Source of the DNA: Antedon bifida
Lineage: Eukaryota > Echinodermata > Crinoidea > Comatulida > Antedonidae
Reading direction: 5' to 3'
Assembly (NCBI GenBank): GCA_963402885.1
Contig: OY727103.1
Span: 2,854,501 to 2,918,500 of the forward strand
Length of the DNA stretch: 64,000 nt
A model generated the notes under the pieces. That model was not told the DNA's origin, made no database searches, and was given only the letters and a program-made list of their open reading frames with translations. Shown here piece by piece: positions 1,564-27,290 of the stretch (positions are counted from its first letter, which is position 1; each line of letters opens with the position of its first letter). Position numbers and translations under genes: made by a program.

Positions 1564-2083
1564 ATGGAGGAAAGATTTCAGACCTTGAAAGCAAAACTAA
1601 ATAAATGCTTTAACGGGAACAATTACCTTCGGTTAAAATTCATCTTGTCTGATCACCTAGATGTGGGTGATATTAAAAATCCACATTTTATAGCCCATGA
1701 TTTATTCAATAGACTTGAAGAAAAGCGTTACATCTCACCTACTAGTATTTACTTACTATTAGAGATTACGGAACTCTTTGGAGTGAAGAAGGCTAAAGAT
1801 CTTGTTAGAAGGTACATGAATGACAATGGGGTTCAGAATACACCGGATGGACCAAAGTTGTCATCTTATCGCAAGCAACTGTATAAAGCCATGAAACATA
1901 TCAATAAAGGTGAATTGCAAACTATTATTGCGTTATACAGAATAGGCCGATATAGCTATACAAATATTTGGGATGTAGTGCTTCATCTGGAAATTAACAA
2001 ACAGCTCGAAGATAAACCAGACAAAATACGAAAGTTTGCAGACTGTCTCAGACAAACAGGAAAAGACATTCTACTTGATAATG
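1564..2083 (+). CDS. Unit A exon: tandem death effector domains (DED1-DED2)
   Basis: This encodes 173 residues plus one base of the next codon. The first half (about residues 5-85) reads as a DED: an LR..L start, a central DLFNRLEEKRYIS segment, then LLLEITELF and an RRYM end. The second half (about 100-170) is a weaker DED-like fold with NIWDVVLHLE and a helix ending KDILL. DEDs are death-fold adaptors that pair with other DEDs, for example in caspase-8 or FADD type complexes; the partner here is unknown. The ATG is the first in frame and gives the same N-terminus as the homologous exon at 19146. The donor is ATG/GTATGT at 2083/2084, phase 1. Homologous exons lie at 13251, 15080 and 19146. 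The function in apoptosis or immunity is inferred from the family. Confidence 0.75.
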
Positions 2084-2288
2084 GTATGTATTTTATTCTT
2101 CTATCTATACAAATTATATAACAAAATATTTTGATTTCTCCTCGGTCTGAAAAATCAAAAAATCAACAAAATTAATCGAAACATCTCACATTATCAACAG
2201 AAATGTAGTTTTTTTCATCAAAAATAATAATAATAATGATAATAATAATGATGATCATCATGCAATGCATTTAATTTCATTTTCATAG

Positions 2289-2857
2289 CCTTAACCAGCG
2301 GTGCCTTAACATACAGTCAATTCCAACTGCTGAAAACTACTGTGGCTGTTTGGTTTGACCAACATTGCTTAATCAAGGTGATTAAAGTTTTGTACGAAGA
2401 CTTGGTGCCAGATAAATCAAAGCTAGAGAACGCCTCGACAATGATGGAATTGTTAGATTTGTTGTATATTTATAAAGGACTAAATTACACGAATCCCACT
2501 CTTATATATGATACCATAACTATAACAAGACAATATAAGGTTTGGGAGCGAATAAAAAGAGTATCCGAATTAGAAATGTTACCACGACCAACCGAAGGTA
2601 ATTTTTGGAATTTAGTAAATACAGACAGAAGGTAATGAGGCTTGGCAATAATATGTCACCTAGTGATACAACAACGATAAGTAAGGTCTATAAAGAAACC
2701 ATGTATACACCATATGACGAAACTGGTAGCTGGAGTTTGATTATGGATCTTGAACGTAACAAGTATCTCTCGGAAGAAAACATGATTAATTTCATTGAGA
2801 TGTTAGAAAGAAATGAACTCAACAATTTAATAAATGCTATAAAATGTATTGATAACA
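2289..2857 (+). pseudogene. Unit A second double-DED exon (DED3-DED4) with one-base frameshift
   Basis: The acceptor TTTTCATAG is at 2288 and the exon enters in phase 1. Frame one reads a DED-like segment (FQLLKTTVAVWF, then MMELLDLLYIYKG) up to about 2600. The second DED half (YRQKVMRL, then SWSLIMDLERNKYLSEENM) continues in another frame from about 2605 to a phase-1 donor, GTAAGT at 2858. The two halves would join if the T run at 2602-2606 had one more T. The exon would then match the two-DED layout of the exon at 1564. The break may be a real mutation or a homopolymer sequencing error. A phase-1 donor-like GTAATT at 2598 could instead end the exon early. Confidence 0.6.
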
Positions 2858-3076
2858 GTAAGTACTATATTATTACCTTCATTTTCAATTTCAACAGAAT
2901 CTTAGTGTCTATAAGGCACCGGTGTACTTAACCATATCAATCTTTATAAATTTAGTTTATTGCCAGACAAATCGATATGTCGTATTTAGAGCAACCTACA
3001 TTTTATTTCGTTTCGTATTTCGTTTTGTTTCGTATTACGTTTTTATCGCATTGACTAATTGCTATCTTGTTTTCAG

Positions 3077-3276
3077 ATGAGATTATTCCAAAATACTTAA
3101 CAGCAGAACCGATGTTAACAGCAAGCAACGTTTCTGATCCAATAAATGCATCGGGTATAAGTAATATGTCAGTAACAGTAAGAAAGGGAATTGGTAAGAC
3201 AGTGCTTCAATATATTATATCTTATAGTACCCTTGCAAGTAAAATAATATATTTTGTAAACATCGCACGAAAGTAA
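3077..3276 (+). pseudogene. Decayed NACHT exon (ghost P-loop)
   Basis: A good acceptor (TTGTTTTCAG) precedes a phase-1 start reading DEIIPKYLTAEPM. This matches DELIRNFITAEQK at the start of the NACHT exon at 20788. The next recognisable pieces are KGIGKTVLQYIISY and SKIIYFVNI, matching the Walker A segment and following strand of the intact copies. The intervening roughly 60 residues are compressed, and a stop follows at 3274-3276. It is a broken older NACHT exon sitting just upstream of the intact one. Confidence 0.65.
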
Positions 3277-3433
3277 AATCATTAGATTGTATATATACTG
3301 ACAGTATATAATATTATACAGATATTGCCTGCTTAGAGGTTAAATATAAGATTTGACATCCCCGAGGGAATGATATTTTGTTCGAGGAAATATATATTTC
3401 CCGAAGCGCTACTGAAACGCGAATGTTGCCACT

Positions 3434-3540
3434 CGAAAATTACACAGTCAATATCATCGTACTCGAGAATTTACTGGATTTTATATGGGACACGATAATT
3501 ACGCGAAAATTACTCAGTCAATATCATTGTACTCGGGGAT
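3434..3540 (+). repeat. 70-bp-period direct repeat in unit A intron
   Basis: Two near-identical 37-bp segments start at 3434 and 3504 (CGAAAATTAC, then AGTCAATATCAT, then GTACTCG). The surrounding 3355-3590 has GAGG/CCTC-like inverted pieces and looks like a piece of a mobile element. I do not recognise the family. Confidence 0.4.
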
Positions 3541-3671
3541 ATATACGATTTACGATCCTCGCAGCGGTAGTCATGTGATGCAGTTTCAACCAATCACGTT
3601 CACGTATTTACACAGGCTATGTAATATAATATTATATTTGTTTATATTGGTTGTTTTTTTTTCAATTTTAG

Positions 3672-3746
3672 GCTACAGGATCTATACTGGTATCTTTCTT
3701 ATCATATTCATTTATATGTTGTCAATGCATTTAATATTACCACAAG
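3672..3746 (+). CDS. Unit A transmembrane exon
   Basis: A 75-nt exon with acceptor CAATTTTAG (3671) and donor CAAG/GTAAGT (3746/3747), phase 1 on both sides. The frame that joins the NACHT exon reads YRIYTGIFLIIFIYMLSMHL and ends LPQ, a plausible single membrane span. Phase agreement with both the DED exons and the exon at 3898 supports its being real. Exons of the same kind, with different sequence, occur at 14660 and 20561. A relic lies at 7528. Confidence 0.55.
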
Positions 3747-3897
3747 GTAAGTTGTATAAGATCAGCGATTATAATGACAGGATTTGCATTAATATCTTCT
3801 GTGTCTCATTTGGAGTAGGACCATCCGGTACTTGTTTCTAAATTCAAAGTATATTTTATTTTTTTAATTATATGCAGAGCACAATTTGTTTTCGCAG

Positions 3898-6713
3898 ATG
3901 ATGTTATTAAAGGCCACGTAACAGCAGCACAGAAATTTAAGCTCAAAGATCCGAATTTGAGACCACCGACGTGGAGAGCAGATACCTTGCAGATGTATGA
4001 TATTTCACAGATGTTTACTGATCCAGTACTATATACCAGCACAAGAGAAGAAAGAAATAAGCTCACAACAGTTCAAGAGTTACTAAGTATTATAAAGTCC
4101 AGAGATCCATGTAAAGTATTAATTACAGGAAATGGGGGAATTGGTAAAACAACCTTACTTCAATATATATCTTTTAACTGGGCAACCAATTCTGATTCTA
4201 CGTTTGCTGGTAAAATATTATTTCTTGTAAACGTCAGAGACATCAAGGTAAATCAAACGATTATAGATGCAATCGCTTACAGAGTTAGTCTGAGGAATAG
4301 TCTCTCTAAAGATAGAACACACATAAAAACATTTATAGAAAACCACAAAAGAGATTTAGTTATTCTGATAGATGGATTAGATGAGCTACAACCTGCAGTA
4401 GATATTCACATGTTTAAAATAGACGACCTGGAAGACAGCACAGTTATTCTTACGTCAAGACCGGGTTTCACAGAAACTTTACATAAGCATTATGATATAC
4501 ATGTAAAAGTAGAAGGATTTGATACAGAACACATAAAGCATTACATTATCAGATATTTCAAACTTATTGGAAAGCCAGATCTGGGCCAGGCTTTAATTGC
4601 CACATTTTATCTCGATTCTGATTTAAACCACCACTGGCGTAGTTATTACAACAACATATTTGAACTCTCATCATCCCCCTTTTTGTTACTTAAAATGTGT
4701 ACTATGTGGCAACACTATCAAATGATTCCCAGTGACTTTCAATATTTTTTTAAAGAAATATTTCGTTTGATTTTAAATCAGTATATTAACAGAAGTGATA
4801 AGTCTACAATGCCTACTAAAGCAGTAAAGGATTTCGATAGCATCACGACTGAGTATAAAAATGCAATGTTAATGTTAGGAAACGTTAGTTACATTGGTTT
4901 ACAGAAAAATGTATTCAAATATACTGAAGAATTTTTAAATGAACTAATGGGACAGGAAACTTTAAACTTATTGCTTAAAATAGGATTTCTTTACAAAGAT
5001 GAACCTATTGCTCAGGATAATTTTACAGAGGCTTACAGATGTCCACATCCATTATTGTCAGAGGCACTAGCCGGGTTTTATTTGTCTAACGAAATTGATA
5101 CTTTAGGCCTAGATTCTAAAGAATGCAAGAAACTAAGAACGAACTCTCATTTACACATGACAAGAATTTTTACCATCAGTTTTTTAGGCCCCAATGCCGA
5201 CAAATTAATGAAACACTGGTTGGCAAATAAGGCGTCAAATTATTACTCTTTTTCAAAATATTTTAAATATGTGAAAGAAGAGAACGAAGGAAAAATATTG
5301 AAATCGTTGGATAAAGATATGTCGCCAAAAATGAAAATCCATGTTGAACATTTAAGGGATTCCTTTAAACAATATTTTAGTGGCAATAATTTGCACTTAA
5401 TACAATTCCTAAAAACATTTTCAGATGAAATTTCAAAAAACATGTATCAGGTCCGAAACAATATTGTGTTAACTATAGATGCATCAAATGAAAGTTCATC
5501 TGATAATGTGTGTAGGTTTGTAGCTCACATGTCAATCCTATTAAAATTATATCAAGTGGACCAGAATAACATACTCTTATCGTCTGATAACTATTTGATA
5601 AAACTCATTGACAAATGGGGTGATAAAGCTCTTGAGATTATCTCAAACGAATGGAAGAATTATAGTTTAAGTGAGGAAATACGTTCTTTTGTATTTTTTG
5701 AAGATGACGAGCCTTATAGACATATTAATGGCTCAGAGTTGTGCCGATTATTTCAAATCCTTCCTAACCTAGAAATTATAAAAATACGCTTTTCTACATA
5801 CAATGGTCTACGTATCGACTCAATGGTAAGCGAATGTAAACACAGTGAAACATTTGTTAGACTAAAGGAATTTAGAATCTCGTTTCAGAATCTTTCCTGT
5901 ATCCATGGGTCTTCACTTGGTCACATACTAAATGTTTCTAGAGATTTAGCTAACTTTAACTTGTCTTCATGTAGTTTATCAAGCAAACAAATAACTGATA
6001 TGCTGAATGAAGTAGATAAAAACTATTTAAAGTCGAAAGAAAATTTTATCAATTTAGAACTAAATGATCTGTCAAATATTGATAGAGATTTACTTGAGAA
6101 TCTCATCAATGCATTAAAAGTATCTGATTCGAAGGACCCTGGATTTTCTTGGAAACGTCATCATCTATCGGCAAAACAATTACACGATCTTTTAATGTCA
6201 CCTTGGCGTTACAAATTTAGATGGAATAGTCTTATTTTGGACGGGGTTGACTTATCATTAATAAAAGGAAATACACTAGCTAATATATTTATTATATTTC
6301 CAAACTTAACACGTCTGTCTATGAATGATTGTAATCTAACTGGTACTATTGTTAATTACATGCTTAAGGAATGTTATAAAAATAAAATAATAAACAAAGA
6401 CAATTTAAAATCTCTTAAGGGAAATGATCTTATAAAAATTCATGATAAATCAATAATCGAATTATTTGTTTTCAGAAAAAATAACAGCAACATGACATTA
6501 GAAATAGGAAAATTGGACTTTCACAGTTCTATAATAACTTGTTATGAATATATTTACAATAGATTTTTACTACAGATTTCGACATATTTGAAATCTGTAT
6601 TTTTTTTAATAATCGGTTTTATGATGGGTGGTTATTTAAATACATCATATACACGTTTTTTCTTTTATTTCTTTATGATGGTATTTACACTATATGTCGA
6701 GATCAGAGTTTAA
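3898..6713 (+). CDS. Unit A NACHT-LRR exon with hydrophobic C-terminus
   Basis: One large exon. The acceptor TTTTCGCAG ends at 3897 and the frame opens at once (DDVIKGHVTAAQK), so the Met at 3957 is internal and not a start. Counted from that Met, Walker A GNGGIGKTT is at 58-66, Walker B LVILIDGLDE at about 134-143, a sensor-like STVILTSRP at 161-169, and SPFLLLKMC in the winged-helix region. Degenerate leucine-rich repeats follow (LCRLFQILPNLEII, LANIFIIFPNLTRLSMNDC). The last 40 residues hold VFFLIIGFMMGGYL and FFFYFFMMVFTLYV, membrane-like segments. NACHT NTPases oligomerise on ligand sensing; the ligand here is unknown. It is about 85-90% similar by eye to the copy at 7715. AATAAA signals lie at about 6933 and 7013. 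Confidence 0.85.
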
Positions 6714-7504: not shown

Positions 7505-7527
7505 CTGACAGTATATAACATAATATA

Positions 7528-7584
7528 CTATCTTCCTTATCGTATTCATTTCCATGTTGTTAATGCATTCAATATTACTACAAG
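7528..7584 (+). pseudogene. Relic of the TM exon in unit B
   Basis: This keeps the TM reading frame (IFLIVFISMLLMHSILLQ) and the donor CAAG/GTAAGT. The acceptor and first codons of the unit A exon are missing, replaced by the CTGACAGTATATA segment. It cannot be a normal internal exon as it stands. Confidence 0.6.
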
Positions 7585-13250: not shown

Positions 13251-13850
13251 CTTTCGTCGTTGGTTTAATCGTCATCGTTGGTTCATCCGCCGTAGGCCTA
13301 CTATATTACTTTTTCCAAAAACAGAAAAGAATCACAATCAAAGCTTTCAGAATCTTGAACTATAATCTCAGCAAGTGCTATAAAGATGACGCATACCCTT
13401 GGTTAAGATTCTGCCTTTTTGAACACTTAAATATAGGTGACCTTGAAAATTCTAATTCCAATGCAATGTATTTATTCAATGTACTTCAGAATAGGGGTTC
13501 AATTTCACCTACAAATGTTAATCTTCTGCTGGAGATTACGGAACTAACAGAACTGAATCATGCTAAACAGCTTTTAAAAGAATATATGAGGGATAACAAA
13601 ATTTACAATAGTGATCAAACACAGTTGTCGCCATATCGGAAGCGACTGTTTAAAGCCATGAGAAACGTTGATGGAAATGGATTGAAATACATTATTTCTT
13701 TCTACGCTCTAAGCCCAAATGTATTCACAAATGTTTGGGATGTGGTATTTGCACTGGAGAAGAATAAAGATCTTACAAATGAAACAACAAAAATAAAAAC
13801 ATTTGCAAATCTTCTCAATGAAACTGCCAAAGACTTACTACTTAATAAAG
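13251..13850 (+). CDS. Unit C fused transmembrane-DED exon
   Basis: From an acceptor-like TATTCTGTAG (13250), phase 1, the frame reads FVVGLIVIVGSSAVGLLYYF, a basic QKQKR stretch, and then a DED pair. The DEDs show LRFCLFEHLNIGDLENS, YLFNVLQNRGSIS, LLLEITELTELNHAKQL, then LFKAMRNV and NVWDVVFALEKN. The donor AAAG/GTAAGT is at 13850/13851, phase 1. In units A and D the DED exon begins with its own Met and has no TM. Here TM and DED share one exon, as if an intron was lost. No convincing start exon was found upstream, so the 5' end is unresolved. Confidence 0.6.
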
Positions 13851-14092
13851 GTAAGTATGATTTTAATTTTCCATCTCAAAATAAATTATATGGTATACCG
13901 CGACGTAATAACTTTTCTCCTCCCTGCAGCATAACCGTGATTGTTATTTTTAATCCGCCCTATGGGATGTCGATTTGCCAGCGTTTACTGTACATTAAAG
14001 CATTTAAAAAGAAAATTATTTCTCTATTGATTGGCAACAAAATAGCTGGGTTTGAAATTTACATTTATTTTTAATCTGTTTTAAACCTACAG

Positions 14093-14400
14093 ATGTGGGA
14101 TATCAAAATTTATCTGAAACAAACTACTGGGGACTAAAAGATTTGATCTGTGTTGCAGCTAGCCTGGTAGTTTTGTTGAAACATTTGTATTATCTTTTGG
14201 CCAGCATCATTTTATTAGATTCAACACAACGGTTACTACGATACTATGCTCTCAGGAGCTGGGGCCAAGTTCAACTAATAAATCCTACATTTAAGCGTGA
14301 CCAACACACGGCATACTTTATAAATGATGCAACAAATATCAAATATAGGCCTAGATTACTAGTACTACACTATATTTGCAAATTATGTTATTGTTTGTAG
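14093..14400 (+). pseudogene. Possible degenerate exon of unit C
   Basis: The acceptor TTAAACCTACAG precedes a phase-1 frame reading DVGYQNLSETNYWGLKDLIC and then a leucine-rich stretch (LVVLLKHLYYLLASIILL), open to a stop at 14400. It weakly resembles the start of the second DED exon at 2289 (LLKTTVAVWF, VIKVLYEDL). There is no convincing donor, so it may be a decayed DED exon or an unspliced terminal exon. Confidence 0.3.
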
Positions 14401-14659
14401 TTACTGAAATGATATGTGGAATGTGGTTGATTATTATGAATTTCAATTTACTTTAATTTAGTACCAATAATTCGAAGAAACTGGAAATCGATATGTAGGC
14501 CTACACCAATATGTATCGGTAAGTGTTAATAATGAAGTAATGATTATTTTCAATGAATTCACTATTAATCAAAATTATTTATTAAGTGTTCTTCTATTAA
14601 ACTTAAACCTACCATTTTGGACTCCAATAGCTTTGTTAATTTTGTTTCTTTCTTAATAG

Positions 14660-14752
14660 TTTTAGCAGCACTGATCGGTGCAATCATCATTTTACTTATG
14701 CCTAACATAATTTCGTCATATCCTCCGTCTCACTATTTTGAAAATGATTATG
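14660..14752 (+). CDS. Unit C transmembrane exon
   Basis: The acceptor TTTCTTAATAG is at 14659 and the donor TATG/GTAGGT at 14752/14753, phase 1 on both sides. The in-phase frame reads LAALIGAIIILLMPNIISSY, then PPSHYFENDY. It is a short hydrophobic span followed by a polar stretch, like the exon at 20561. Splicing it between the exons at 13251 and 15080 keeps the frame. Confidence 0.55.
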
Positions 14753-15079
14753 GTAGGTCACTATTTTTACATTATTTCTTCTGTGAGATGTAATATATTA
14801 TGGTTAATGTTATACACAGGGGTTTGAATTCTTATAGTTTTGACGTAGGCCTAACATTATTAAAATAATAAAAAGTGGTTCAGAATTGGGATCATGATGT
14901 CCAAAATGTAATGGATCTTTCGTGACCATACATCTACTGTCTGTTGTAAAACGTGGTAAAGACCCGTCTTTCAGTTTTCACGTTAACCTGCTAAAAGACA
15001 AACACACATACAAACAAATAACGCAGACAGAAATATATAACCTAATTAAATTAATACATATAAAATTTATTCTTTGCAG

Positions 15080-15594
15080 ACACAACAGAATATGGTGAAA
15101 TGATCAAAAAAAGGTTTCAAACCATGAATGCTGATCTCAGTAGATACTATGAGGGTGACAGATATTATTGGTTAAGATTCTGTCTAATTGATTATTTAAG
15201 TGTTGGCGATATTACAGATGCTATTGGAAATGACTTGTTTAATGCACTTCAATTAAAAGGCTTAATCACACCTACTAATGTGAGTCTGCTATTAGAGATT
15301 ACGAAGCTAACAGAAGTGAAGCCTGCCGAAGATCTTATAAGAGGGTATATAAAGGACAACAAACTTCAAAATTATGATGACACAATGTTGTCAGATGATC
15401 GGAAGCGACTGTTTAAAGCCATGAGACAAGTTCATCCAGATGCACATGCATTAAAACGTTTGGTTTCTTACTACGACCTAAAACATCATAACTTACAAAA
15501 TATTTGGAATGTCGTTTTTAAATTAGAAATTGCAGTACTATCCAAGGATTCATACAGAATTAAGAACATTTATAAAACACTGGTTGGTAATTAG
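15080..15594 (+). pseudogene. Unit C DED exon truncated into a NACHT relic
   Basis: The acceptor TCTTTGCAG gives a phase-1 frame DTTEYGEMIKKRFQTMNADL, closely like the start of the exon at 1564. A DED (LRFCLIDYLSVGDI, DLFNALQLKGLIT, LLLEITKLTEV) and most of a second one (LFKAMRQV, NIWNVVFKLE) follow. Near residue 157 (about 15568) DED homology ends. The DNA then matches the middle of the NACHT exon (ACACTGGTTGGTAATTAGG versus the unit B copy), but in a different frame, so a stop follows at 15592-15594. A deletion has joined the two exons. Confidence 0.65.
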
Positions 15595-15830
15595 GGCATC
15601 CAATTATTATTCATTCTCAAATATTTCAAATTGTAAAAAACACGAAAAAGTGTACCTCTCCAGAAATGAAAGTACATTTACGTCCATTTTAGGTAATTGC
15701 CTTAAATATAGGCCTATTAGTGGCAATAATTTGAACTTTAATTGCTTTTAGATGAAAAAAAGAATGGAATAAAATATGAAAATAACCTATCTGAAATTGT
15801 GTTAATATATATTATTACCGAAAAACATCA
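15569..15830 (+). pseudogene. NACHT-LRR exon relic fused to the unit C DED exon
   Basis: The relic frame reads KHWLVIRASNYYSFS, matching KHWLVNKASNYYSFSKYFKY in the intact copies. Scrambled pieces of the next region follow (SPEMK-, SGNN- and NIVL-like DNA). Several indels and stops are present. Everything upstream (P-loop, Walker B) and the LRR end are absent. Confidence 0.65.
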
Positions 15831-19145: not shown

Positions 19146-22100
19146 ATGGATGAAAATTTAAAGTTCCAAATTTTTCTAGGAAATCTAAGCGAACACTATG
19201 CTGGTGAGAAAGTCCGAGAGTTAAGAATGCTTCTATATGGTATTCTATCAATTGGAGATCTAGATCAATCACACGTAGCCTTTGACCTGTTTAACAAACT
19301 TACTGAACATGGATTTATTTCTAAAAACAATGTGGAACTGTTGTCCGACATAGCTGAAGTAACTAATCTGGCCTCAGCAAGAGATTGTATAACCAAATAC
19401 AAGAATACTGCTCAATGTAGCAATGACACAGAGACAGTACGCCTAACAGAATACCGCAAAACACTGTTTAGAGCACTTAAAAACGTTGGAAAGGGTGACT
19501 TGAAAAGAGTGACTGGATTCTACAAACTGAGTGCCTTCAACTATAACAACATATGGGATGCTGTATATCACATTGAGAAAGACGGACAACTGGATTCACA
19601 ACAGAAGATTACAATGTTTGCAAAACTTCTGAACAAAGTGGCAAAACATAATATACTAGGTATGCCTATCACAAGCAATTTATAATTTTATAATTTAAAA
19701 ATGTTCCTCTTTTTAGTTGTTTAAGTTTAAACTTTTATTTTATTTTGATTTCTTTTTGTATTTCTCGGTGCATTTGAACCAATCAGCAAAACCCTATCAG
19801 CCAACAGTTATTCAAACATCGGCTTCAGCATCGACACCAACACGGATTTCAAATTAGCCAATCCAGTAACATCATTAACAAATCCAGTGAATACTAAACA
19901 ATGGGGTGCACGGGTGCAAAAGAGGGAAAAGGGCTTGATGAGATTCCATTTTCTGAGATTGAACATTCAGATATTATGTAACTAAAAATACTGTGACGCT
20001 GTGATACATGTATGAAACACAATACAATGTGAGCTACTCATGAACCATTCATTATCATAATGTAATGATGATATTGATCTGTAGGTGGCGCAAACCATTA
20101 TAAAATAAATACCGGTACAATGGCGGTATTTTTCATAACCAATCCATCCTCTTGGAAAAAAACGGTCATAGAGAATGATCTATGGTGTCACAACAGACGC
20201 TAAAATAATAGTATTGGTTATGAGTATATGACGTTCTTTGGGTAAATGAGGTAATGTGTTAATGGCGTCATAGGTTAATGACGTTGTTTGGATTTGAATT
20301 TTGTTACGTATTGTAATTTTGTTTCTATCCTACAGGTAACCGGAAATCTAAATCTAAACCAACTAAACGTAGGCATATCGGTAAGCATAAAGAATATCGT
20401 GTGTTTTAATAAATTCACAATGTAGCATTGACCTACAACCAATCAAATTAAATAAGAAACAATCAATGTATTAAAAAGTTATTTTATTTTTTGCACTATA
20501 ACTTCAAAACAAAAACAAGTAATCATCAAATGCTCTTTATTAATGCTGAAGTTTTTTTAGCTTTAGCGATGGTCTTTGCATTTATTGTTGTCATCTCAGC
20601 CGTCATACTCTCATACTTATTCCACGTTTTTGCGAACAAATTTTCAAATTACGAATTAACAGAAGGTAATGTTTATTATTAATTTTCTATTATGAAATTA
20701 GTATTATAGACGCTACCTAACGTTGAAATTTGCTAAAAAAAATCTTTTCTGTTCGTTTTACACTTTCATAGATTGTCTTCATTTCAGATGAGCTTATTCG
20801 AAACTTCATAACAGCAGAACAGAAAACAAAATTAAAAGACCCAAATATAAGACCACCTACATGGAGAGAAGATCAAGAGTATGACATTTCACAGATGTTC
20901 ACAGATCCAGTACTGCATATAACTGTAGAAAAAAGAAAAGTCGACGTATCATTGCAAGAATTATTGGATATTATAAAGTCTAAAAACTCCTGTAAAGTAT
21001 TAATGGTAGGAAATGGTGGAATTGGTAAGACAACTTTGCTTCAATTCATATCTTACAACTGGGCGACCAATTCCGATGATACGTTTGCGGGTAAAATATT
21101 ATTTATTGTAAACGTAAGAGACATCAAAAAAGGTCGAACAATCACAGATATTATCGTTGATTCAGTTAAGCTTGACAAATTTCGTAAAGAATATGATATG
21201 TATGTAAATAAAACTATTATAAGAACTTTTATTGAAAAAAACGACAACGATTTAGTTCTTCTGATAGATGGATTAGATGAGTTAACATATGGGGTAGACA
21301 TTCCACTGATATCAAAAAGAGAAGAATTGGAAGACAGTACAGTTATTTTGACTTCACGACCGGGTTTTACTGAAAGTGTACATAGGCATTTTGATGTACA
21401 TATAAAAGTAGACGGATTCTCTACAGAAAACATAAAACCATATATAAATAGATATTTCAACAACGCTAATCTGGGACAGTTATTGATTAACGAATTCAAA
21501 CTTGATTCATTGAAAAAGAATTGGGGTGGTAATCACAAAAAAGTATTTGAACTCTTTATATCTCCGTTTTTATTGCTTAAAATGTGTGTTATATGGCAAC
21601 ACGAACAAATAATTCCAAAAGATTTTCAACATTTTTTTAAAGACATCTTCCGTTCCATTTTAAATCAGTACATTAACAGAAGTAATGATCAAAAACGGAT
21701 ATCGAACTTTGACAACATTTCAATTGACTATAAAAATGCCATTGTAAAATTAGGGAAAATTAGTTACATTGGTTTAAAAAATAATTTACTTCATTTTACT
21801 AAAAAGAAGTTAAATGACCAAGTAAAAAATGAAACTTTAGTTGACTTATCGTTGAAATTAGGATTTGTTTACAAAGATGACCCTACTGTTCAGGATGATT
21901 TTGTGGCAACGTACAGATGTCCACATAAGTTATTGTCAGAAGCTCTAGCCGGGTTTTACTTGTCTAACAAAATTGATACTTTAACATCTGAGGAATATGA
22001 GTACTTAAGGACGAACAGGAATTTACACATGACAAGAGTTTTCACTATTAGTTTTCTAGGTCCTAATGCAGACAAATTAATGAAACACTGGTTGGTAAAT

Positions 22101-23276
22101 AGGCCCTCAAATTATTACTCTTTTTTAGAATATTTTAAATATGTAAATCAAGAGCACGAACACAATGTAGTGAACTCATTGGATAAACACATGTCATCAG
22201 AAATGAAAATGCATGTTGAAAATTTTAAAAATTCGTTAAAGATGCTATATGAAAAAGATTTGCACTTATTCCAAAAAATGAAATTGTTTGCAGATGATTA
22301 TACAAACAAGGGGGAAAGAGAAATATTTGAAAATATAAACTCAATCATAGAAGAATCAAACATTGAGTCATCTGATAAAGTATGTAGGTTAGTAGCACAC
22401 GTTGAAATCTTATTACGATATCTGTCAAAGCAAAGCAAAGTACGAAACAGTAGGTATATGATGAAATTACTTCATAAATGGGGTGATAAAGCTCGCAAAA
22501 TCTACTCAGACGAATGGAAAAGATACCGTTTTGATGAGGAAATAGATACATTTTGGTGGTTTATTGAAGACTTCGTAGGCCTAGATAACACTACTATTGG
22601 CTTACAAATTTGCAAATTAATTCAAAACTTTCCCAATCTGCAATATCTGGAAATTTATCATTGGAAAACTGTCACTGCTATGTGGGAAGGGTATTATATG
22701 TCAGCTAAACTATTACACGATCTTTTAACATCACCTAGTCGTTATAGAATTAAATGGGATATGCTTTTATTGGATGGCACTGACCTATCATCAATCAACG
22801 GAAGTACGCTAGCTAATATATTGATTATATTTCCAAACTTAACACGTCTTTCTATGAATAATTGTAATTTAACAGGTACTATTGTAAATGACTTGCTAAG
22901 TGAATGTTATAAAAATCATATAATGATCAAAAGTGACCTGATATCTGTCAATGGAAATGACATTACGAATATTGACAGTACATCATTAATCCCAGCATTT
23001 GTTTTAGTAATTAAAGGGAATCGCAAAACATTAGAATTTGAAGAGTGGAACTATTACAGTTGGTATATAGAAACTAAATGTAAACCTATATTTAAAGCGC
23101 ATTTATTTCGTCTTTTAAATATTTTATATAAAGTTTTAATATATTCAATAATTATAGCTACAACATCTTTTCATTTTCTTCTATTCTTACGAGGATATAT
23201 TTCAATTTTTACATTATTAACCATTTATATTTACTTATGGGTAGGTCTTGATTATTTTATTTACCTTCAGTCATAA
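19146..23276 (+). CDS. Unit D: DED-TM-NACHT-LRR-TM receptor, apparently intact
   Basis: Proposed exons: 19146-19659 (DED pair), 20336-20380 (basic linker NRKSKSKPTKRRHI), 20561-20665 (TM: LAMVFAFIVVISAVILSYLF) and 20788-23276 (NACHT-LRR). Every internal junction is GT-AG and phase 1, and the joined frame is open. The NACHT exon carries GNGGIGKTT, LVLLIDGLDEL, STVILTSRPGF and SPFLLLKMC. Compared with unit A it lacks about 100 residues of the LRR part, going from a PNLQYLEIYHW repeat almost directly to SAKLLHDLL. The C-terminus has two strongly hydrophobic segments (VLIYSIIIATTSFHFLLFL; IFTLLTIYIYLWVGLDYFI), a likely membrane hairpin. By family this is a sensor ATPase coupled to death-fold signalling; the membrane placement is inferred. 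AATAAA is at 23930. Confidence 0.75.
20788..23276 (+). CDS. Unit D NACHT-LRR exon
   Basis: This is the large 3' exon of the gene starting at 19146. The acceptor CATTTCAG ends at 20787. The phase-1 frame opens DELIRNFITAEQKTKLKDPN, so the Met at 20895 is internal. It aligns along its length with the exons at 3898 and 7715, with divergence spread evenly, so unit D is an older paralogue than the A/B pair. Confidence 0.8.
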
Positions 23277-24905: not shown

Positions 24906-27290
24906 TAACTAGAGTTTGTTTTGGATCTGGTTTTTACAGACAAAGAGAATACTATAAATGGCATTAGGCAGTCTCCACCACTGGGTAAAAGCGACCATAT
25001 GATGTTACAATTTTCATTGGATCTTGTAAGAGATGACAGAATTGAACCAAATATTCGAAGTTACAGGCATGGTAATTATGATTTGCTGCGCGAGAAAATT
25101 GGTTTGGTAGATTGGGATGTGGTTTTCAATGACAAATCAGGTATTCAATCGTGGGACGAATTCGAGCATATTCTTGCGAAGAATATTGATGAGTGTATCC
25201 CGATGAGGAAGGTTTGCCACGGAAGAAAACCTCTTTGGATGAACAAAAAAATTGAAAAGCAGATTGCCAAAAAGAATAAATGTTGGAAACAGTATGTAAA
25301 GGCTAAGAGAAAACAAAAAGTATGTGTGTCAGCAAAATGGTCGAAGTTTGTCCAAGTAAGAAATCAAACTGTAGATCTGATTCGATGTAGTAAATCTGAC
25401 TTCGAAAATAAAATAGCAATTGAGATCAAATCTAATGAAAAGTCTTTTTGGAGGTATCTCAGTTCTCAGATCAATATAAAGTCTGGTATACCCAACTTAA
25501 TTGATAGTAATGGAAGGCATGTGTCTGATGACAAGGATAAGGCTGAGTTGCTAAACACGTTTTTTAGTAGTGTATTTGTCGATGAAAATTTTTCGAATGT
25601 ACCGGCTGTTGATGAAATTTCAGAAGAGTTTTTATCTCAAGTTGACTTTCCTTGTGACGAAATCTTAAATATTTTATCAACGTTGAATATTACTAAAACA
25701 GCTGGACCTGATGGTATTCACCCACGCATCTTAGTCGAACTAAAGGATATCATTTGCTACCCCCTCCATATTATTTTTACGAAATTGTTTCAAGAAGGAG
25801 CCGTCCCAAATAGTTGGAAACGGGCTATAGTGGTACCGATTTTTAAAAAAGGAGTGAAGTCTGACCCAAGCAACTATAGACCTGTGAGTTTAACTTCGGT
25901 AGTTGGTAAAATTATGGAGAGAATTATCAGGAAGGAATTATTGGACTTTCTTGAACATCACTCACTTATTTGTTATGAGCAATTTGGTTTCCGGCAAGGT
26001 CGTTCCTGTGCTTTACAATTACTTGATGTTCTTGAAAACTGGTTTTCTTATTTTGATAATCAGGATTGTTTTGATTGTATCTACCTTGACTACAAGAAGG
26101 CTTTCGATAGTGTGCCTCATCATAGACTCCTTCTGAAAATGAGTGCATTGGGTATTAAAGGTAAACTTCTAAACTGGTTTCAAGAATTTCTTAACGATAG
26201 ACAACAACGGGTTAGTGTCAATGGATGTGTTTCAGATTGGGCTGATGTTCGTAGTGGTATCCCGCAAGGAAGCGTCGTTGGACCTGTTCTTTTCATTATG
26301 TTTATAAATGATTTACCTTCTGTTATTTCTTCCTCTGTACGCATGTTTGCAGATGATACTAAATTGTATAGAGTAGTTAACACTGGGAATGATGCTCAAG
26401 TTCTACAAGAAGATTTAGAGAAAGCATGTGACTGGTCTGACAAATGGCAATTACCTTTTAACGAGGGTAAGTGCAAAGTAATGCACTTTGGGAAGAAAAA
26501 CAACAAACATCTGTATGCCATGCGTGGTTTCTTATTGAATGAAGTTGATCATGAAAAAGACCTCGGAGTTACTATTGACTCTAAACTTGTTTTTAATGTA
26601 CATGTGGCAGATGTAGCAATGAGAGCAAATCGGAAGTTGGGCATGGTATATCGAGCTTTCAAGTTTTTAAATATGGATGGGTTTCTTCGTTTATATAAAG
26701 CTATTATTCGTCCGACCTTGGAATACTGCAACGTTGTTTTTAACTCGCTACATTGTAAGGAGGAAGACCTATTGGAAAAAGTCCAAGAACGTGCCACCAA
26801 GCTTATTTTTTCCATTCGTCATTTACCTTATTCAGAAAGGCTGAAAATTCTCAACCTACCTACTCTCGCATACAGAAGGCAAAGAGCTCATTTGATACAG
26901 ATTTTTAAAATTTTACATGGAGTGGATAGTATTTCTGCTGATTCTTTTTTTGAGCGTGATGAAGATGTTAGAACACGTGGTCATTCTTTTAAATTAAAAT
27001 TTAAGTTCTCACGCACAAATTGGATGAGGGATTCATTTGGTCGAAAAGCTATTATATTATGGAATTCGTTATCGGAGGATGTAGTAGCTTCAAGATCAAC
27101 CAATCAATTTAAGTCCGGTCTTGAACGGGCATGGTCCAACCACCCTCTTAAATTTGCGCCATATTCAAGAGTTGATGTAATTATCAAGAGGGGCTTATAG
27201 GCATAGCCTAGCCTCGACTCCGGACCCAGCACCGCTGAGCTCCGGAAACAAGTAAGTAAACAAGTAAGTAAACAAGTAAACAAGAAGATT
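24906..27290 (+). mobile_element. 5'-truncated CR1-like non-LTR retrotransposon
   Basis: The open frame from about 24909 to 27200 starts inside the endonuclease C-terminus (DLVFTDKEN... with GKSDH). It continues through a full reverse transcriptase: AGPDGIHPRIL, NYRPVSLTSVVGKIMERI, QFGFRQGRS, YLDYKKAFDSVPH, GIPQGSVVGPVLF and the catalytic FADD box (MFADDTKLY). The N-terminal endonuclease and any ORF1 are missing, as expected for incomplete target-primed reverse transcription. The 3' end has a short GC-rich segment and an AAGTAAGTAAAC simple-repeat tail (27247-27284), typical of CR1/L2 relatives. The RT frame is undamaged, so insertion is recent. It lies in sense with the NLR genes. Confidence 0.85.

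Follow-up and report, generated by a model that had tools for sequence, protein, structure and literature searches.

Animal NLRs are normally taken to be soluble cytosolic proteins, and the first-pass annotation of the locus described here started from that rule, but it is contradicted as a generalization by published exceptions (PMC5094078, PMC12909245, PMC8699970, PMC13133943). NLRs of sea anemones and corals carry three to five clustered predicted transmembrane (TM) spans N-terminal of the NACHT domain (PMC5094078), sponges possess NLRs with membrane spans (PMC12909245), and the sea cucumber NACHT proteins AjNLRC4 and AjNLR-new, with two predicted spans, have been reported on the coelomocyte surface (PMC8699970, PMC13133943), the NACHT of AjNLR-new being reported as extracellular (PMC13133943). 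Genes joining a DED to a NACHT domain are described from amphioxus, sea urchin and Nematostella and are treated as intracellular (PMC2575513), and an oyster expansion comprises proteins with an extracellular domain, a TM helix, a DED, TRADD-N and a variable C-terminus able to hold STAND NTPases (PMC8195603). We describe here unit D, a gene of the crinoid Antedon bifida predicted to encode a DED pair, a basic linker, a TM span and a NACHT domain followed by LRR-like repeats. It lies in a 64,000-nucleotide window (the whole stretch of DNA analysed, C16:2854501-2918500, C16 being contig OY727103.1 of assembly GCA_963402885.1), and its relatives were sought in the genome surveyed (315.6 Mb, 27 contigs). 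The exon encoding the span is firmly present in D and recurs across its family.

Unit D resembles the sea cucumber proteins in combining a NACHT domain with predicted membrane spans; compared by description only, these carry Ig domains where D has DEDs (neither the DED nor the NACHT exon of D gave an Ig match), their spans are placed differently, and AjNLRC4 is without LRR (PMC8699970, PMC13133943). With the anthozoan proteins D shares a span N-terminal of the NACHT, but this span is single and follows a DED pair rather than belonging to a cluster of three to five, and in the excerpts of PMC5094078 no protein of that group is described with a DED pair followed by just one span. The amphioxus, sea urchin and Nematostella genes have the DED joined to the NACHT as in D, with no span mentioned in the excerpted account (PMC2575513). 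The oyster proteins, some of which hold a STAND NTPase in the same chain, share both TM and DED with D; in these, however, the TM precedes the DED, and DED and STAND are both intracellular, an order to which unit C, a neighbouring paralogue, comes nearer than D (PMC8195603). Caspase-8 and cFLIP match D over both DEDs by profile and by fold, whereas D instead adds a TM span and a NACHT. No DED-TM-NACHT layout was found in the literature searched, which was a single library available in excerpt, and the excerpts of PMC6321704, PMC11797021 and PMC8913654 held nothing bearing on the span. Because membrane-associated NLRs have been published from anthozoans, sponges and sea cucumbers, the layout of D is best viewed as a variant, not as the first membrane NLR. 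The receptor layout proposed at first pass is borne out in the exon structure, but it is shared by a small gene family and is not the property of one gene.

Gene model and domains of unit D

The four exons of D (Table 1) join into a single frame of 1,050 aa with zero internal stops, across introns of 676, 180 and 122 bp that are all GT-AG, every junction being in phase 1. This agrees with the exon structure claimed in the first-pass annotation, whose in-frame join and TM exon coordinates fit. Since all introns are in phase 1 and the lengths of exons 2 and 3 divide by three, any skip preserves the frame, and a direct join of exon 1 to exon 4 likewise reads open. When donors 19659 and 20665 and acceptor 20788 are fixed, 21 combinations of sites are open; the model chosen has the sites nearest consensus and a TM exon start resembling those of its relatives. 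An alternative in-frame acceptor at 20567, 6 nt downstream of 20561, has a slightly better pyrimidine score and would remove two residues; 20561 is preferred because the span exons of relatives start alike. The start codon was assigned by eye, the frame of D being open upstream as far as an acceptor, and it is possible that D has another coding exon upstream of exon 1. In paralogue U2, an in-frame stop immediately 5' of the equivalent ATG was seen by eye.

Exon 1 matches Pfam DED at E 5.1e-7, below Pfam's cut-off, and the tandem DED of caspase-8 by profile at E 1.1e-4 (positions 10-150 of 170). The best of five AlphaFold2 (AF2) models of the pair reached a pLDDT of 84.5, the remaining four ranging from 64.6 to 40.5, and the top Foldseek match was a chain of the caspase-8/cFLIP assembly (E 9.6e-4, TM-score 0.66, root-mean-square deviation 5.9). 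Two DEDs in tandem, of the caspase-8/FLIP type, are found in D, and with them an N-terminal death-fold effector. The NACHT exon, run with three window rows, gave a pLDDT of 37.2 and its model was not used.

In exon 4 the NACHT domain is recognized by Pfam (E 1.9e-16) and matches NLRC4 by profile (E 6.4e-6), and it contains Walker A and Walker B patterns, as does the NACHT of an NLR. Ribonuclease inhibitor (RI)-like repeats are seen by eye C-terminal of it; we term them LRR-like because Pfam gives no LRR match. Pfam found no caspase domain in exons 1 and 4. The 35 residues of exon 3 are strongly hydrophobic, and the TM span reported in the first-pass annotation is borne out by a Kyte-Doolittle hydropathy (KD) of 2.7-2.9 in the best 19-residue window. 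By eye, the N-terminus of D has no signal peptide.

Recurrence and maintenance of the span exon

A search of the genome with the NACHT exon of D gave at least 138 matches (55 of 1073 candidates scored). Twelve long matches of at least 48% identity constitute the close clade (L001-L008 on C16, L009 and L012 on C9, L010 and L011 on C13), a grouping that agrees with a tree of 29 NACHT exons. Among them are U2 (L002), B (L003), U4 (L004), U5 (L005), A (L006) and U8 (L008), the DED exons of D and U2 being L039 and L040; L019, which is 60% identical, short and broken, was left out when sequons, cysteines and members of the close clade were counted.

Phase 1-1 exons with good acceptor and donor and a KD of at least 2 were taken as span exons in a scan of the 1.5 kb that precede each of 30 NACHT matches. 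Positives were D, U4, U5, A and U8, all on C16 and amounting to five of the eight copies there; none was found at L002, L003, L007 and L009-L012, nor at any of the 18 loci L013-L030, which include L019, where a looser scan picked up a weak candidate. A laxer scan of 1.5 kb at L007, 4.0 kb at L009, 3.7 kb at L011 and 4.4 kb at L012 gave one exon, about 1.9 kb upstream at L012. By eye, the span of U2 can be assembled from two exons, and at L007 a homologue of the span exon, well supplied with splice sites, has an 11-residue core and is counted as uncertain, its preceding exon not having been identified. In B, the span exon and the NACHT acceptor are both decayed; with its acceptor AG gone and an interruption in its tail, the unit as a whole looks decayed. 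The tally for the 12 close-clade loci is seven with a span (six by scan, one by eye), one uncertain, one decayed and three not found.

A scan 3' of eight DED exons recovered the D exon (L039), gave none for L040 (the split span of U2), and found no span exon within 1.5 kb in the other six, L041-L046. At L029 on C7, the stretch between DED exon and NACHT exon, which includes a small linker exon, is visible throughout and without a span; it was seen whole in this gene alone. On C9 (16762501-16765500), L037 has a DED exon and an acidic linker together with a span exon, some 10 kb upstream of L009, to which they may belong.

That the span is an artefact of the gene model, with the hydrophobic frame lying in an intron or with DED-TM and NACHT on separate transcripts, strikes us as very improbable. 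Decayed parts in units B and C do indicate that broken genes occur locally; the exon nevertheless recurs in relatives, in an identical phase and between good splice sites, against a background in which non-NLR DNA of the window (36 kb on both strands, 72 kb in all) gave a single exon, with two donors, and intron 3 of D contains neither AATAAA nor ATTAAA. Judged from the sequence, exon 3 is likely included in the mRNA.

The span exon also shows signs of selection. Among five aligned span exons (10 pairs) dN/dS ranges from 0.24 to 0.94, values that are noisy owing to the shortness of the exon and at the top near neutrality, and hydrophobicity is kept; in a neutral simulation, copies still open and hydrophobic made up 17%, 7% and 2% at 20, 30 and 40% divergence, and the D exon differs from the other four by 23-36%. 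The 19-residue span cores have a KD of 2.1-2.9, and their summed insertion values (position ignored) are negative in eight of the nine scored.

The DED exons of D and U2 align at 86% and the remainder of the two units at 79-89%, except over about 20111-20775, which holds the linker and span and does not align. Both encode a span although these segments do not align, as if the span had been retained while its sequence was swapped; gene conversion, or loss followed by regain, could account for the mismatch. A search with the DED exon of D gave at least 150 matches (150 of 695 candidates scored), and among the matches listed the best are U2 (80%), L041 (68%) and then mostly C7 copies at 55-63%, with one on C9 at 64%. 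The NACHT exons of the C7 clusters are 38-41% identical to that of D. Given these matches and the span-less interval of L029, D seems to join a DED type known from genes that lack a span to a span and a C16-type NACHT.

These findings bear on a splice switch, raised at first pass as isoform switching, in which skipping of exon 3 would yield a cytosolic DED-NACHT-LRR protein (in D still tail-anchored by its C-terminal hydrophobic pair) and inclusion a tethered or inverted one, splicing setting the site of the sensor. We regard this as possible but unlikely. The phase-1 introns and the two exons whose skipping keeps the frame would permit it, and the C7 relatives by DED seem span-less (the whole interval of L029; none of the six loci L041-L046 within 1.5 kb). 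On the other hand, hydrophobicity kept in diverged copies suggests that inclusion matters, and the shift in sequons and cysteines set out below is unexpected with a mostly cytosolic NACHT.

Orientation of the DEDs and the NACHT domain

A span between DEDs and NACHT would put them on opposite sides of the membrane, a paradox that was rightly raised at first pass. Our preferred reading, held tentatively and at something under even confidence, is of a small DED-NACHT family with a symmetric phase-1 span exon that acts as an internal signal-anchor, the DEDs being cytosolic and the NACHT-LRR part lumenal or possibly at the surface. Its fuller form, an inside-out NLR, would be a type II receptor with cytosolic tandem DEDs that signals in the manner of death receptors, a glycosylated extracytosolic NACHT-LRR sensing or oligomerizing outside; this is possible, and we hold it a little more loosely. 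In such a protein, exon 3 would be spliced in and serve as the anchor, the DEDs would stay cytosolic, since no signal peptide was seen and the tandem DED stands ahead of the span, and the NACHT-LRR part would be carried into the lumen of the endoplasmic reticulum (ER), possibly reaching the cell surface. Sensing or oligomerization by the ectodomain might then be matched by DED clustering on the cytosolic side of the membrane, with recruitment there of adaptors or caspases that carry a DED. The C-terminal hairpin of D and U2 may supply a second anchor.

Were the span so used, a membrane would lie between an NLR sensor and the caspase-8-type tandem DED linked to it, and one symmetric exon would turn a DED-NACHT gene into a membrane receptor, a change visible within one family. 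It would also provide an independent, testable case for the unusual proposal of an extracellular NACHT, for which the report on sea cucumber AjNLR-new is the precedent (PMC13133943), including whether nucleotide is still bound there.

The charge flanking the span, N side minus C side, is +7 in D, +5 in C and +3 in U8, in keeping with the first-pass argument from the positive-inside rule that the DEDs are cytosolic; U4, U5, A and L012 were not used, the exon on their N side not being known. A folded domain at the N-terminus, where no signal peptide precedes it, favours DEDs inside and NACHT-LRR outside. In proteins of the ER lumen, sequons accumulate and free cysteines are avoided. Parsimony changes of sequons were compared with those of four matched N-S/T control motifs over NACHT residues 1-490, in the 12 clade exons and 17 distant ones: the clade shows 45 changes against 24, 28, 21 and 33 for the controls, and the distant NACHTs 24 against 26, 40, 37 and 38 (odds ratio for gain in the clade 2.5, Fisher p 0.0016), with the same direction in both clade subsets and both distant subsets. 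Cysteines number 1-8 per 490 aa of NACHT in the clade, about half as many as the 7-13 of the distant exons, at similar GC. On the DED side (8 versus 23 DEDs) neither shifts: the sequon odds ratio is 1.2 (p 0.66), with 0.73 sequons per 100 aa in clade DEDs and 0.66 in the 23 diverse DEDs, and Cys stands at 1.17% versus 0.87%; L041, L044 and L046 were left out of this comparison, as were the additional DED-like exons found in A and U5. This exploratory pattern is suggestive of what would be expected for a NACHT, but not a DED, in a glycosylating, oxidizing compartment. Raw sequon enrichment over residues 1-700 was discarded, since NLS/NLT motifs occur within LRR repeats and the C-terminal regions of distant exons show enrichment as well (1.53); tests confined to the core and set against control motifs took its place.

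Several observations weigh against this orientation. The flank charge is reversed in U2 (-2) and L037 (-5), so the positive-inside argument holds for D, C and U8 and fails for these two. By columns alone the sequon test is weak (odds ratio 2.1, p 0.036), and in raw counts over residues 1-480 two shared columns contribute 16 of 62 sequons, the exclusion of which leaves 46 where 45 are expected. The signal derives from one genome, 12 related exons and several versions of the test, and the independence of changes assumed by Fisher's test is only rough. The DED control involves only 10 changes in a small set, most genes of the 23 comparison DEDs being unchecked for a span; a first control, of near-identical C7 copies, had run counter to sidedness, with 0.73 versus 0.10 sequons per 100 aa, and was replaced by the diverse set. 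L010, L011 and L009 share the sequon and cysteine signature despite having no span exon in the 1.5, 3.7 and 4 kb searched, respectively. All 12 close exons keep Walker A and 10 of them have the Walker B pattern, as would suit an ATPase of the cytosol. Moreover, in D and U2 the LRR-adjoining side of the C-terminal pair is the more basic, favouring a cytosolic NACHT side. This two-segment hydrophobic C-terminus, described at first pass for D, is present there as two weaker spans (summed biological-scale values -0.3 and +0.5) and more strongly in U2; it is variable among relatives rather than family-wide, with none within the exon frames of U4, U5, L012 or L008 (whose frame ends early).

A re-entrant or monotopic anchor, leaving DED and NACHT both cytosolic in a conventionally oriented, membrane-tethered NLR, would satisfy both charge biases of D, basic before the span and basic before the C-terminal pair, and would keep the ATPase in the cytosol. 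We consider it rather improbable, as the KD and negative insertion sums of the cores given above are typical of single spans and the sided shift in sequons and cysteines would be left unexplained. Overall, the signals on the localization of D conflict at the level of sequence, and we lean towards DEDs inside and NACHT-LRR outside.

Paralogues and other features of the window and genome

Table 1. Exons and hydrophobic segments of unit D and its paralogues, in window coordinates
Feature	Position	Strand	Remarks
Unit D, exon 1: ATG and tandem DED, 171 aa, phase-1 donor	19146..19659	+	Pfam, profile, AF2, Foldseek
Unit D, exon 2: basic linker, 15 codons, phase 1-1	20336..20380	+	
Unit D, exon 3: membrane-span cassette, 35 codons, phase 1-1, in-frame skippable	20561..20665	+	
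Unit D, exon 4: NACHT, helical region, LRR-like repeats, hydrophobic C-terminal pair, stop	20788..23276	+	
Unit D, two hydrophobic segments in the last 90 residues of exon 4	23004..23273	+	
Paralogue A, DED-pair exon	1564..2083	+	phase-1 donor by eye
Paralogue A, membrane-span exon, strong splice sites, phase 1-1	3672..3746	+	
Paralogue A, NACHT exon	3898..6713	+	
Paralogue B, membrane-span exon remnant	7524..7583	+	
Paralogue C, hydrophobic span and DED pair in a single exon	13251..13850	+	boundaries by eye
Paralogue C, basic linker exon, place and phase as in D exon 2	14462..14518	+	
Paralogue C, membrane-span exon	14660..14752	+	
Paralogue C, second DED exon, open until stop, overlapping a NACHT remnant (15568-15637)	15080..15594	+	

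Unit C (window 13251-15660) has the order TM-DED-TM-DED followed by the NACHT remnant and is probably decayed. Unit A contains two extra exon-like frames (window 2288-3750), the first weakly DED-like (Pfam E 0.011) and the second matchless, and a degenerate NACHT stretch precedes its intact NACHT exon; U5 carries the same extra frames. Just downstream of unit D, at window 24909-27200, is an open reverse transcriptase frame of 763 aa (RVT_1, 3.8e-32). Outside the window, in the stretch covering L034 with L004 (C16:2829001-2837564), gag/pol-like retroelement sequence was recognized by eye 5' of the U4 span exon, and no DED was found in this stretch.

Among loci on other contigs, the span exon of L037 appears, by eye, to have a GC donor in place of GT. 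Small phase 1-1 linker exons precede the NACHT exon in L026, L029 and L030 on C7, in multiple copies in L026 and L030 (by eye). The LRR-like part of L010 and L011 consists of tandem repeats with a unit of about 393 bp. Two arrays on C13, at 3620-3633 kb and 3683-3693 kb, comprise 5 and 4 matches with frames of 321-360 aa at a spacing of about 3.1 kb, and these frames are weakly homologous to the beginning of the NACHT exon (E 0.3-1.8).

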